Positions 3,246 through 15,846 of a DNA stretch of 38,604 bases are shown in pieces (within the stretch, counting starts at the first letter, position 1; each line of letters begins with the position of its first letter). Source of the stretch: Alphaproteobacteria bacterium (GTDB taxonomy: Bacteria; Pseudomonadota; Alphaproteobacteria; Acetobacterales; Acetobacteraceae); the NCBI GenBank assembly GCA_016869735.1, contig VGDL01000033.1, forward strand, positions 1 to 38,604, given 5' to 3'. The notes below the pieces were generated by a model. It was not told the DNA's origin. It worked only from the letters and a program-made list of their open reading frames with translations, and searched no databases. Position numbers and translations under genes: made by a program.

Positions 3246-4442
3246 ATGGCCACTAAGCCTCGTCTGCCGCGCGGGCGGCAATTTTTTGCCAATCCCGGCC
3301 CGACCAATATCCCTGATTCCGTGCTGCATGCGGTGGCGCATGTCACGGTTGATTTCAATGATCCTGCCTTCATCAAGGTCTATGAAAAGTGTGTGGCAGG
3401 CTTGAAGCGCGTACTGAAAACCGAACAGCAGATTTTCATGTATACGGGTTCTGGCCACGCTGCATGGGAAGCAAGCTTGGTCAATCTTTTCTCTCCGGGC
3501 GACAAGATTGCCATTATTGAAACCGGCCATTTTTCGCAGAATTGGGCGCAGATGGCTGAGGATTTGTCGCTTCAGGTTGAAACCATCGCTGCTGATTGGC
3601 GCCGTGGTCTGGATTTCGCAACGCTGCGCGCGGCGCTTGCCGCAGACAAGACGCATAGCATCAAGGCGGTCTGCGCGGTGCATAATGAAACCGCAACCGG
3701 TATGGTGCTGCCCCTGCAACAGGTGCGCGCCGTGATGAATGAGGTGGGGCACCCAGCCCTGCTGCTGAGCGATACCATTTCCTCACTTGGCTCGATTGAT
3801 TTTCGAATGGATGAATGGGGTGTGGATGTCGCCGTGGGCGGCAGCCAGAAGGGCTTGATGTTGCCTACCGGCATGTCCTTCACCGGTGTTTCAGCCAAGG
3901 CAATGGAAGCACACCAGACATCGCGCTTGCCGAAATCCTATTTCTCCTGGACCAAGATGCTGTCTCGGCCATTGAAATCCTTCATCGGCACCACGCCGAC
4001 CTCGCTTTTCTACGGGTTGGAAGAAAGCCTGCGGCTGCTGGAAGAAGAAGGGCTGGATGAGGTCTTTGCGCGCCATTCACGCCTTGCGGAAGCGGTGCGG
4101 CGCTGCGTACGCCATTGGTCCGGCAATGCCGGGCCGCAGCTTTTCAGTACCAATCCTGATCGAAATTCCGATACCGTAACGTCCATCCTGGTGCCCGAAG
4201 GCCATGATGCGGAAGCGGTGCGCCGCACCGCGCTACAAACCTTCAATGTCTCACTTGGCGGCGGGCTTGGACCTTTGGGTGGCAAGGTGTTCCGCATCGG
4301 TCATTTGGGTGATTTGAATGAGCCGATGATTCTGGGCACGCTTTCCGTTGTGGAAATGGCGCTGAAATTGAATGGCGTGCCGCACGCGCCAGGTGGTGTG
4401 GCGGCGGCGATGGAATATCTGGCGGAAGCCGCGCGTTCATGA
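3246..4442 (+). CDS. Class V aminotransferase, serine-glyoxylate/alanine-glyoxylate type
   Basis: This is a PLP-dependent fold-type I aminotransferase of 398 residues, the usual length for serine-glyoxylate aminotransferases. The N-terminal FFANPGPTNIP segment, SGHAAWEA near residue 70, cofactor-binding D176 in LLLSDTISS and Schiff-base K202 in GGSQKGLM fit the family. The expected reaction is transfer of an amino group from serine or alanine to glyoxylate, giving hydroxypyruvate or pyruvate plus glycine. It leads a four-gene run with an acyl-CoA ligase, a D-2-hydroxyacid dehydrogenase (which could reduce hydroxypyruvate) and an SDR. Substrate choice cannot be settled from sequence alone. Confidence 0.85.
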   Translation: MATKPRLPRGRQFFANPGPTNIPDSVLHAVAHVTVDFNDPAFIKVYEKCVAGLKRVLKTEQQIFMYTGSGHAAWEASLVNLFSPGDKIAIIETGHFSQNWAQMAEDLSLQVETIAADWRRGLDFATLRAALAADKTHSIKAVCAVHNETATGMVLPLQQVRAVMNEVGHPALLLSDTISSLGSIDFRMDEWGVDVAVGGSQKGLMLPTGMSFTGVSAKAMEAHQTSRLPKSYFSWTKMLSRPLKSFIGTTPTSLFYGLEESLRLLEEEGLDEVFARHSRLAEAVRRCVRHWSGNAGPQLFSTNPDRNSDTVTSILVPEGHDAEAVRRTALQTFNVSLGGGLGPLGGKVFRIGHLGDLNEPMILGTLSVVEMALKLNGVPHAPGGVAAAMEYLAEAARS

Positions 4443-9056: not shown

Positions 9057-9884
9057 CTAGCGATGAGCCAGAATCCGTGCCAGCCGGTCAAACTCGGCGA
9101 CAGAGAGCGTCTCGCCGCGCCTGTCCCCGGCAATGCCGGCTTGATCCAATAGCGCTTCGGCGCCGCCGAGTGACTTCAACGCCCCGCGCAGCATCTTGCG
9201 CCTTTGCCCGAAAGCTGCGGCGGTGAGTTTTTCCATAGCGGCGAAAAGCGCAGGCGGTGGGTCATCCTCATGCGGCGTAAAGCCGACCACGGCAGACCAC
9301 ACCTTGGGCGGCGGGCTGAAGGCGCCGGGCGGCAGGCGCAGCAGCAAATCGCAGCGGCAGCGCCATTGCGCCAGTACGGCAAGCCGCCCATAGGCCGGGG
9401 TGGCCGGGGCCGCCGTGATGCGTTCCGCCACTTCAAGCTGGAACATCAGCGTCATGCCTTCAAGCGCGGCAGCGCCGCGCAGCCAGCGCACCAGCAGTGG
9501 GCTTGCGACATTATAGGGCAGGTTGGCGATGATGCGCCGTGGCGCGGGCAGGGCGGCAGATTGGTCAATGCCAAGCGCATCGGCTTCCAACACGCGAAGC
9601 CGCGCGGGATAGGCCGCTACCAATTCCTGCAAGGCGATAACCGCACGAGAATCCAATTCCACCGCCAGCACCGAAGAGGCAGAGGTTTCCAATAGCGCGC
9701 GCGTTAGCCCACCCGGCCCCGGCCCCACTTCCAGCACATGTCGCCCGGTAAGATCACCAGCCAAGGCGGCGATTCGCGCGCAGATGGTCGGATCAAGCAG
9801 GAAGTGCTGGCCAAGCGCTTTGCGCGCATCAAGCCCATGCCGAGCAATGGTATCGCTGAGGCTCGGCAAGTCGGGCTTTGTCAC
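9057..9884 (-). CDS. rsmA: 16S rRNA (adenine(1518)-N(6)/adenine(1519)-N(6))-dimethyltransferase
   Basis: RsmA (KsgA) dimethylates two adjacent adenines in helix 45 of 16S rRNA late in 30S assembly. The 275-residue protein carries KALGQHFLLD near the N-terminus, the SAM motif EVGPGPGGLT, the catalytic NLPYNVAS motif and a C-terminal helical domain with FGQRRKMLRGAL. The frame is open upstream into surA, but the GTG at 9884, 4 bases after the surA stop, gives the expected N-terminus and family length. It is the last gene of the lptF-lptG-lptD-surA-rsmA run. In many proteobacteria pdxA sits between surA and rsmA; here it does not. Confidence 0.93.
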   Translation of the reverse strand: MTKPDLPSLSDTIARHGLDARKALGQHFLLDPTICARIAALAGDLTGRHVLEVGPGPGGLTRALLETSASSVLAVELDSRAVIALQELVAAYPARLRVLEADALGIDQSAALPAPRRIIANLPYNVASPLLVRWLRGAAALEGMTLMFQLEVAERITAAPATPAYGRLAVLAQWRCRCDLLLRLPPGAFSPPPKVWSAVVGFTPHEDDPPPALFAAMEKLTAAAFGQRRKMLRGALKSLGGAEALLDQAGIAGDRRGETLSVAEFDRLARILAHR

Positions 9885-13518: not shown

Positions 13519-14643
13519 CTAACCATCCTCAAGATGCAGCAGCAGTGCTGCCGCCAGTAGGAAACCGGCGCCTGCGGGCGCCCAGGCCGCCAATACCACA
13601 GGCAGCGTCCCGGCTTCACCAAATTCGCCGGTGATCTTGTTCAGCACGAAAAGGGCGAAGCCGGCGCTGACACCCCCTGCGATCATACGCGCCACCCCGC
13701 CGCGTCGGGCAGAACGCATGGAAAACCCGGCCGCCAGCAGCGCCATGGCGGTGGCAAGCAAGGGCAACGCCAATAGCGATTGGAAATGCAGCCGATGCCG
13801 AATGGCTGAAAATCCGGCATTTTCCAGCACCTTGATGAATTCCGGCAAGGCCCAAAGGCCGAGTGTATCTGGGCTTGCGAAGGAATTTTCGATCCGTTCC
13901 GGCGTCAATTCCGTTGTGAAATCCATGCCCTGCGGCGCGCCACCCATGCGATCTGCGCCGAAGATAACGGCGCTTTCAAAGCGCCAGCGCCCGGGTTGGA
14001 GCAAGGCCGAAGTGGCTTCGATACGCGCCAGGGGGCGATCTTCCGCTGAAAGGCGCCAAACGCTCACCTCAGCAAGACGGAGCGCTTCACCGGGACGCAA
14101 TTCTCGTGTTGCGATGGGCCGTCCAGAAATGATCGCAACACCTTGGGGCTGCAGCCCATCATCGGCTTGCCGCAGCCAAAGCCTGCCCCCGGCCAGCGCC
14201 GTGATGCCGCCCACATTGCGGAGATAAAGCTGGTCCAACCTTTCTGCCCGGGCCAACATGGCTGAAGACAAGGGCGAAAGGGCCATGCTGGCACCAAGAC
14301 CCAGCACCAGCGCCACAAGCACTGGGCCGGCCAAAAAACCCCAAGCCGAAATACCCGCCGCTCGCGCTACCACCAATTCGGAAAACCGCGTCAACCGCCA
14401 GAACGCAATGATGCCCCCCAGCAGCACGGCAAAGGGCAGGATCTGCATGGCCACATAAGGCAGCCGCAGACCCGCAATCTGAGAGACAAGCGCGAAATTG
14501 GCATCAGGCCGTGTCGCGGCGCGGCGCAGCAATTCAATCAGGTCAAACAAGGCAACCAGACAGGAAAGCGCCAGCACCATCAGCAAGGTCATGGCAGCAA
14601 AGCGCCGTGCCACATAGCCCATAAGCGTCAAAGGCAGGGTCAT
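13519..14643 (-). CDS. lptG: LPS export ABC transporter permease LptG
   Basis: LptG is one of the two inner-membrane permeases of the LptB2FG transporter that extracts LPS for the Lpt bridge. The protein has 374 residues starting MTLPLTLMGYVARRFAA. There are six predicted membrane helices: three in the first ~130 residues, a periplasmic beta-jellyroll domain in the middle, and three in the last ~100 residues, ending AAALLLHLEDG. The ATG at 14643 overlaps an in-frame TGA that would end lptF if the duplication at 14733-14878 were absent. With the duplication, lptF now stops 132 bp earlier, so translational coupling to lptG is probably weakened. Confidence 0.92.
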   Translation of the reverse strand: MTLPLTLMGYVARRFAAMTLLMVLALSCLVALFDLIELLRRAATRPDANFALVSQIAGLRLPYVAMQILPFAVLLGGIIAFWRLTRFSELVVARAAGISAWGFLAGPVLVALVLGLGASMALSPLSSAMLARAERLDQLYLRNVGGITALAGGRLWLRQADDGLQPQGVAIISGRPIATRELRPGEALRLAEVSVWRLSAEDRPLARIEATSALLQPGRWRFESAVIFGADRMGGAPQGMDFTTELTPERIENSFASPDTLGLWALPEFIKVLENAGFSAIRHRLHFQSLLALPLLATAMALLAAGFSMRSARRGGVARMIAGGVSAGFALFVLNKITGEFGEAGTLPVVLAAWAPAGAGFLLAAALLLHLEDG

Positions 14644-14732
14644 GGCAGCGCCCCTCGCGGCGGGGCGCTGCGCGGCAGGCCTGGGGCGCCGCCCAGCCAC
14701 CAAGCGGAAATCACACCTGGCAGGATGGCATG
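14640..14732 (-). pseudogene. Orphaned 3' end of lptF, out of frame
   Basis: If one copy of the adjacent 73-bp repeat is removed, the lptF frame continues through this stretch. It would encode 30 further residues beginning HAILPGVISAWWLGG and end at TGA 14642-14640, overlapping the lptG ATG. This tail looks like the second half of the last LptF membrane helix followed by a Pro/Arg-rich end. As sequenced, it is not translated as part of LptF. The reconstruction is direct from the sequence; that it was the ancestral form is inference. Confidence 0.75.
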
Positions 14733-14878
14733 CGCCCAGATCAGCCAGATCAAGCCATCCCGCCGCGCCGCAGCGTTACCAATGGTGAGGCCGAGCGCGA
14801 GCAGCCGCCCAGATCAGCCAAATCAAGCCATCCCGCCGCGCCGCAGCGTTACCAATGGTGAGGCCGAGCGCGAGCAGC
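14733..14878. repeat. 73-bp tandem duplication in the 3' end of lptF
   Basis: Copy 1 is 14733-14805 and copy 2 is 14806-14878. They are directly adjacent and differ at one base only (G14748 versus A14821). The period of 73 shifts the reading frame by one. LptF reads copy 2 in the correct frame and meets TAA (14778-14776) inside copy 1. A slipped-strand or recombination duplication is the simplest origin; an assembly error is possible, though the single mismatch argues for two real copies. Confidence 0.95.
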
Positions 14879-15846
14879 GCCACCATGATGCCAATGCCAA
14901 GCACGACGCCCGCCCCGCCGCCATGGCGGCGGAATTGCCCCGTCAGCGCCACCGCCAGCCCGACCAGCGCGAAGGAAAGTGCGGTCACGGGGCTGGCCAT
15001 GCGCTGATGCGCTTCTGCCCGGAAACGCCTGATGTCCCGTGGGCGCAGCCCCTCAGCCGGATCAGGGTCCAGCAATTCGCCGATGGATCTTTCGCGGCTG
15101 TCGCGGCTGCGGGTTTCCTCATTGCGCGCAACACGGGCAAGAACAACGCTGTTTTCGGAAAAGCTCAACACCGTCAGGCGTGGCGGTGCGCCGGCGGCGC
15201 CCTTTTCCATCTGCTGACGCACGCCATCATACAGCGTCACGCGCGGGCCTTCCGTGCCCTGGCCGATGCGCCCGGATTGCGCCAGGATTGTTACCGCGCC
15301 GGCGGCCTCGCGCTGGTCATGCACCAGAATGCCGCGCAGCGTGCCATCAGCTTCGCGCATGCGGGCATAAACGGTCAGATCACTGCCAAGGGTGGAAAAC
15401 ACCCCTTCCTGCAACAGCACGCCCACCAATTGGTTGCGAATTTCAAACTGCCATTGGCGGAAGGCGGAATGGCTGAGTGGCACAAGCCAGAAATTCAGCA
15501 TCGCCATCAACGCCACTACCAAAAGCCCCAGCGCCACGGCAGGGCGCGCGATTTGCCAATTGGAAAGCCCAGCCGCGCGCATCACGACCAATTCACGGTC
15601 GCCCGCCAGGCGCAAATGCACAAACAGCATCACGATGAAGGTCGTGATTGGTAGAATGACCGAAAAGAAGGATGGCAGCAAAAGGCTAGTCAATTCAAAA
15701 AACACCGCGAGTGACAGCCCGCGATCCAGTACCAATTCAATGAAGCGCAAGGATTGCGTCAGCCAGACAAGCGCCGCCAGCCCCACCGTGACGGCAAGCA
15801 GGGCCAGCGCAAGCTGGCGAAACAAATAGCGGTCGAGCAGGGTCAT
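14776..15846 (-). CDS. lptF: LPS export ABC transporter permease LptF, C-terminus altered by frameshifting duplication
   Basis: LptF is the second permease of LptB2FG. The ATG at 15846 gives MTLLDRYLFRQLALAL, the usual start; a GTG four codons upstream is also open. Membrane helices occur near residues 10-35, 45-75 and 95-120, a periplasmic domain follows, and two helices are visible in the last 80 residues (SPVTALSFALVGLAVAL and GAGVVLGIGIMVALLALGL). The sixth helix begins DGLIWLIWA and then breaks off into AARARPHHW because of the 73-bp duplication. The product is 356 residues instead of 377. LptF is normally essential, so this protein must still work, be complemented elsewhere, or reflect a sequence error. 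Confidence 0.85.
   Translation of the reverse strand: MTLLDRYLFRQLALALLAVTVGLAALVWLTQSLRFIELVLDRGLSLAVFFELTSLLLPSFFSVILPITTFIVMLFVHLRLAGDRELVVMRAAGLSNWQIARPAVALGLLVVALMAMLNFWLVPLSHSAFRQWQFEIRNQLVGVLLQEGVFSTLGSDLTVYARMREADGTLRGILVHDQREAAGAVTILAQSGRIGQGTEGPRVTLYDGVRQQMEKGAAGAPPRLTVLSFSENSVVLARVARNEETRSRDSRERSIGELLDPDPAEGLRPRDIRRFRAEAHQRMASPVTALSFALVGLAVALTGQFRRHGGGAGVVLGIGIMVALLALGLTIGNAAARRDGLIWLIWAAARARPHHW

Follow-up and report, generated by a model that had tools for sequence, protein, structure and literature searches.

The window analysed here, a stretch of 38,604 nucleotides, is contig 33 of a genome (G000) assembled into 131 contigs, with a size of 3.25 Mb and a completeness of 99%. No 16S rRNA gene was found in G000, by a search that was positive in only 9 of 14 control genomes, and G000 is therefore probably a MAG. 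The minus strand of the window carries, in this order, genes that we take to encode a FAD-linked oxidase, LptF, LptG, an LptD-like protein (a frame of 788 codons), a SurA-like protein and an RsmA-like protein, all names except those of LptF and LptG being putative. The lptF product matches the Pfam family LptF_LptG (PF03739; E-value 3.1e-72, 244 bits against a cut-off of 27.9) over residues 10–351 and profile positions 1–338 of 353, in agreement with the gene identity proposed in the sequence-only reading of this DNA. It shares both this family match and the lptF–lptG order with LptF, the permease subunit of the LPS exporter LptB2FG. An LptF search of G000 gave three matches, of which the two listed both lie at the window locus. 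The features of the locus are as follows:

14776..15846, minus strand: lptF as assembled, short form; open frame of 356 codons from ATG plus TAA, or 360 codons from an upstream GTG
14806..14878, minus strand: copy 1, the 5′ copy of a 73-bp unit, translated in frame with lptF; base 58 of the unit is T
14733..14805, minus strand: copy 2, the 3′ copy of this unit, translated in another frame; base 58 of the unit is C
14776..14805, minus strand: the nine foreign codons AARARPHHW, followed by TAA as stop, wholly within copy 2
14643..14732, minus strand: stranded last 30 codons of lptF (HAILPG...GALP), in a frame other than that of the rest; the C-termini of relatives are homologous
13519..14643, minus strand: lptG, intact; PF03739, E-value 2e-58; one-frame match to the relatives G005, G020 and G015

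Tandem Repeats Finder (minimum score 50) placed the sole array of the window at 14733–14878, with a period of 73 and 2.0 copies, and our own scan found the two copies of the unit to be identical at 72 of 73 bases, as had been read from the letters; for 72 matching bases in adjacent units chance is no explanation, the likeness being far beyond it. The single difference is a transition at unit base 58 of the coding (minus) strand, where the 5′ copy has T and the 3′ copy has C; read in the lptF frame, it is synonymous. The end of copy 1 coincides with a codon boundary (..LIWA), after which copy 2 reads AARARPHHW and TAA, while the normal lptF tail, HAILPGVISAWWLGGAPGLPRSAPPRGALP, is present in a different frame with its stop at 14640–14642; the translation agrees with the earlier description of a frame change at the junction and of 30 residues replaced by nine. 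The further claim, that removal of one copy restores a 377-codon frame whose stop overlaps the lptG start, is borne out both by arithmetic (a body of 968, a unit of 73 and a tail of 90 bases make 1131 bases, or 377 codons) and by the relatives, since 377 codons is the lptF length in 16 of the 16 loci tried, L013, known to be shorter, having been excluded beforehand. In the window, lptG adjoins lptF and its ATG (14641–14643) shares bases with the stop codon that ends the long frame of lptF; a stop/start overlap of the two genes is common to most of the relatives listed.

A single copy of the unit was found in all 17 close-relative loci that were aligned (16 genomes; 91–94% protein identity), which indicates that one copy is ancestral. 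The ancestry of the single-copy form, already argued for in the sequence-only reading, is thus supported by sequence comparison, and a long C-terminus (381–388 residues in alignment numbering) in 28 of 29 lptF loci supports it as well, the exception being G023. These 29 loci come from 29 of 34 same-genus genomes; three others (G001, G014 and G017) matched but lay outside the C-terminus comparison, and G009 gave no lptF match. At unit base 58, 16 of the 17 close-relative loci have C, the state of copy 2, and L004 has T, the state of copy 1. Among wider relatives, an LptF match was obtained in 92 of 99 and none in seven. The closest lptF records, in a search that may omit the window's own genome and very near ones, are MAGs labelled Roseomonas sp., Rhodospirillales, Alphaproteobacteria or Asaia bogorensis, some of them naming a lake, and the more distant records belong to Neoroseomonas and Caldovatus.

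Two side observations were made in the course of this comparison. The MAG G013 contains two different lptF loci (L005/L033 and L047), 94% and 92% identical to that of the window, which suggests a mixed bin, and a distant LptF match (38%) at G097:C1:2471582-2472562 has one internal TAG. G018 was considered as a nearer relative, its first 86 LptF residues being 98.8% identical, but its neighbouring oxidase (94.1%) is no nearer than those of other relatives; the contigs of G018 are broken inside lptF and lptG. No closer relative that could serve as a tie-breaker was found among the same-genus genomes.

As assembled, the gene is predicted to give a product without the second half of TM6 and without the LptF C-terminal tail. 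It differs from LptF of LptB2FG in that the final 30 residues are swapped for nine alien ones and the last hydrophobic segment is gone. The best 19-residue Kyte–Doolittle mean from residue 333 is 0.34 in the window, compared with 1.68 in L004 and L012 and 1.38 in G023; the earlier statement that most of TM6 is lost holds at the level of hydropathy, where the disappearance of the last hydrophobic peak speaks against a sixth segment in the predicted protein. PMC4986956 gives LptF six predicted membrane segments and places its C-terminus in the cytoplasm, PMC5548808 reports that growth of E. coli stops on depletion of LptF and LptG, and PMC6854846 reports LptF and LptG substitutions in Pseudomonas isolates. 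The titles and abstract openings of the lptF papers listed report no natural truncated lptF. Given the loss of the last hydrophobic segment and the arrest of E. coli on depletion, the short LptF would be expected to have little function, if any.

The short LptF might nevertheless work, if this clade can do without the tail of LptF and without the C-terminal half of TM6. G023 bears on this. In this genome a deletion extends over the lptF 3′ end and the lptG 5′ end (L013/L044), so that LptF stops at 366, is 15 residues shorter and ends in ...HAILPGGGALPPWRC, the lptG start and first residues being deleted too; the stop of the short lptF overlaps an in-frame ATG of lptG (L044:3540-3610, L013). 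The sequence-only reading had named close relatives with a naturally short LptF as evidence that would speak against it. G023 answers to this only in part: its LptF is short, but through another kind of deletion, which takes the start of lptG with it. A second, independent loss of the LptF end, together with the first lptG residues, speaks for a tolerated truncation. Against it, all of the 29 loci except that of G023 have kept the long C-terminus, and the tail appears to be under constraint; moreover, G023 keeps a hydrophobic last segment, which the window form does not (1.38 and 0.34, as above), and as G023 is a MAG and G000 probably one, both lesions could be assembly errors. We consider a functional short LptF improbable on these grounds.

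Another lesion was noticed in G008, where lptG has a one-base frameshift between residues 109 and 121 (L046:about 3960-4000). A lesion hot spot in lptFG was considered, but three affected loci (lptF of the window, the lptF/lptG deletion of G023 and the lptG frameshift of G008) among the 18 close ones, i.e., the 17 from 16 genomes and the window, are too few to claim one. Those parts of the adjacent oxidase and LptD-like genes that these 18 loci include showed no lesion.

A search for LpxC, LptC and LptB found all three in G000, with open frames, and the organism thus still appears, from its gene content, to be built for LPS synthesis and export. This argues against the idea that lptF is broken because LPS export was lost for good in an LPS-less lineage. 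The broken lptF would fit that idea, but the rest of the locus speaks against it: lptG is intact, the LptD-like frame matches relatives in one frame and there is little decay downstream of the lesion, and of all the readings weighed here we regard this one as the least credible. Slippage in a direct tandem repeat whose period is not a multiple of three can change the reading frame, and the duplication could be imagined as a reversible switch in which gain and loss of a copy toggles lptF in part of the population. Its repeat type is the appropriate one, but the repeat is absent in all 17 close-relative loci, the two copies are not identical and lptF is a housekeeping gene whose depletion, with that of lptG, halts E. 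coli as cited above; such a switch is very improbable. Taken as one proposition, that the C-terminal half of TM6 and the LptF tail are dispensable in this Acetobacteraceae clade, as the independent lesions here and in G023 might imply, or that a revertible lptF allele exists in a sub-population, is unlikely.

A more serious possibility is that two alleles of a single-copy locus, the T and C variants, were assembled in tandem and that the real lptF is intact. The copies differ by one silent transition, as strain alleles would; G000 is probably a MAG, and strain mixtures can distort MAG assembly; there is no microhomology precisely at the junction; and the stranded tail is still conserved, as in a truly intact gene. 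The assembly itself points the other way. A comparison of 80 contig ends, from 40 of the 131 contigs, gave three pairs that overlap end to end, each by exactly 127 bp. Ten pairs of ends have a terminal suffix of 127–287 bp in common, these being forks or repeats and not end-to-end overlaps. Uniform 127-bp overlaps are a mark of de Bruijn assembly with a word of 127; an unmerged join would then leave about 127 bp, and a 73-bp unmerged overlap is not an expected artefact, the length of the repeat having no match in that of the overlaps. On this evidence of the assembly word, the sequencing reads probably carried the junction of copies 1 and 2. Neither the window nor the 20 stretches counted contain any N bases.

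An array scan of G000 (60 stretches with 1,218,604 bases, or 37% of the genome with the window included; period 20–500, identity at least 90%) gave nine array rows, of which only that in lptF has a period not divisible by three, and a control scan of nine stretches from three relatives (180,000 bases) gave a single array, of period 56, derived from a dispersed repeat. The absence of a second such period in 1.22 Mb indicates that this assembly rarely makes arrays of this kind; a frequent assembly artefact is not supported, on this count and on that of the 127-bp contig overlaps. Over the block that the window has in common with G005 (about 9.06–19.5 kb of the window) and with G020 and G015 (up to about 19.05 kb), one frame suffices for the match of each long gene but lptF; in G015 the border of the stretch compared cuts the LptD-like gene. 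Apart from the rows over the duplication, one antisense frame of G005 at 9613–10231 matches in two pieces. With all this considered, an assembly of two alleles in tandem is less likely than a real duplication.

The dispersed repeat, of 56–60 bp and with a common core of about GTGAATCNGCCGCTY, occurs in tandem twos and threes in G000 and G005. A pattern built from it matched G000 at 12 places (seven exactly, five with a single mismatch), none of them in the window, and the reversed control gave 0 matches. Sites of the repeat are:

L072:1745-1864 (G000:C3), dispersed repeat
L078:about 3767-3935 (G000:C9), dispersed repeat
L094:678-789 (G005:C55), dispersed repeat

The duplicated unit of lptF is itself divergent. 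In comparison with 16 relative loci, it has 9 private bases in 60 conserved columns, versus 34 in 805 for the gene body and 3 in 70 for the tail; it ties as the most divergent 73-base window of lptF, a value reached by 0.8% of the windows of that size. The private bases are mostly synonymous and common to both copies. Clusters of private bases in 73-base windows of the 16 relative loci reach 9 in L005, 8 in L016 and L019, and 7 in L047, and the coincidence of a divergent cluster with the unit, noticed after the fact, is only suggestive; the divergence may be due to chance, to a short exchanged tract or to a property of the lineage. No donor for the unit was found in 397 family genomes, with two candidates scored per genome, in a search that missed the single-copy lptF of G007; among the matches listed, the best over at least 68 of 73 bases was 80% identical, and shorter pieces were 100% identical over up to 22 bases.

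Short intragenic tandem duplications form by template slippage or switching. The duplication in the window resembles them in being head-to-tail, near identical, present in one genome only and absent from relatives; in contrast to them, there is no microhomology precisely at its junction, one base differs and the frame is broken in a gene essential in E. coli. On balance, a recent, private mutation in the one assembled genome is the reading we favour, and we consider it somewhat more likely than not. Under such a mutation, a 73-bp stretch of lptF would have been copied twice in this lineage during replication or repair, and the resulting frame shift would stop translation inside the second copy. 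The exact junction has 0 bp of microhomology, as do 55% of random placements, but a 5-bp match, GGCGC, is present at the two boundaries one base out of register with the junction; the chance of at least five matching bases within one base of it is 0.029 in random placements. We infer that the event may have been an error-prone template switch, with GGCGC at both boundaries and the substitution 15 bases from the junction; one such switch would explain the duplication, its period and the substitution together. In the stranded tail of 30 codons, the differences from 16 relative loci add up to 136 synonymous and 52 nonsynonymous ones, a nonsynonymous fraction of 0.28, versus 0.20 in the 100 codons upstream and 0.15–0.16 in the unit, these sums counting related sequences many times; the tail thus still looks constrained, although out of frame, and the lack of strong decay would make the lesion recent.

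Several points count against a recent private mutation. Constraint on the tail is also what an intact gene would show; the one-base difference between the copies argues against a fresh duplication unless the event was error-prone or two strains are involved; microhomology is lacking precisely at the junction; G000 is probably a MAG; and the period of 56 in the one array of the control stretches from relatives is not divisible by three either. If the mutation is real, the allele would be segregating or short-lived, since the lesion would be costly in a gene that is essential in E. coli and one copy of a direct tandem repeat can later be deleted.

The duplication is not a new kind of system and has no dedicated function; it would be a recent one-off lesion in a known LptF. 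If the lesion is not real, it illustrates why read support should be sought before an essential gene in a fragmented assembly is taken to be broken. A real lesion in growing cells would mean either that part of a permease helix supposed to be indispensable is not needed, or that a costly allele can persist in nature.
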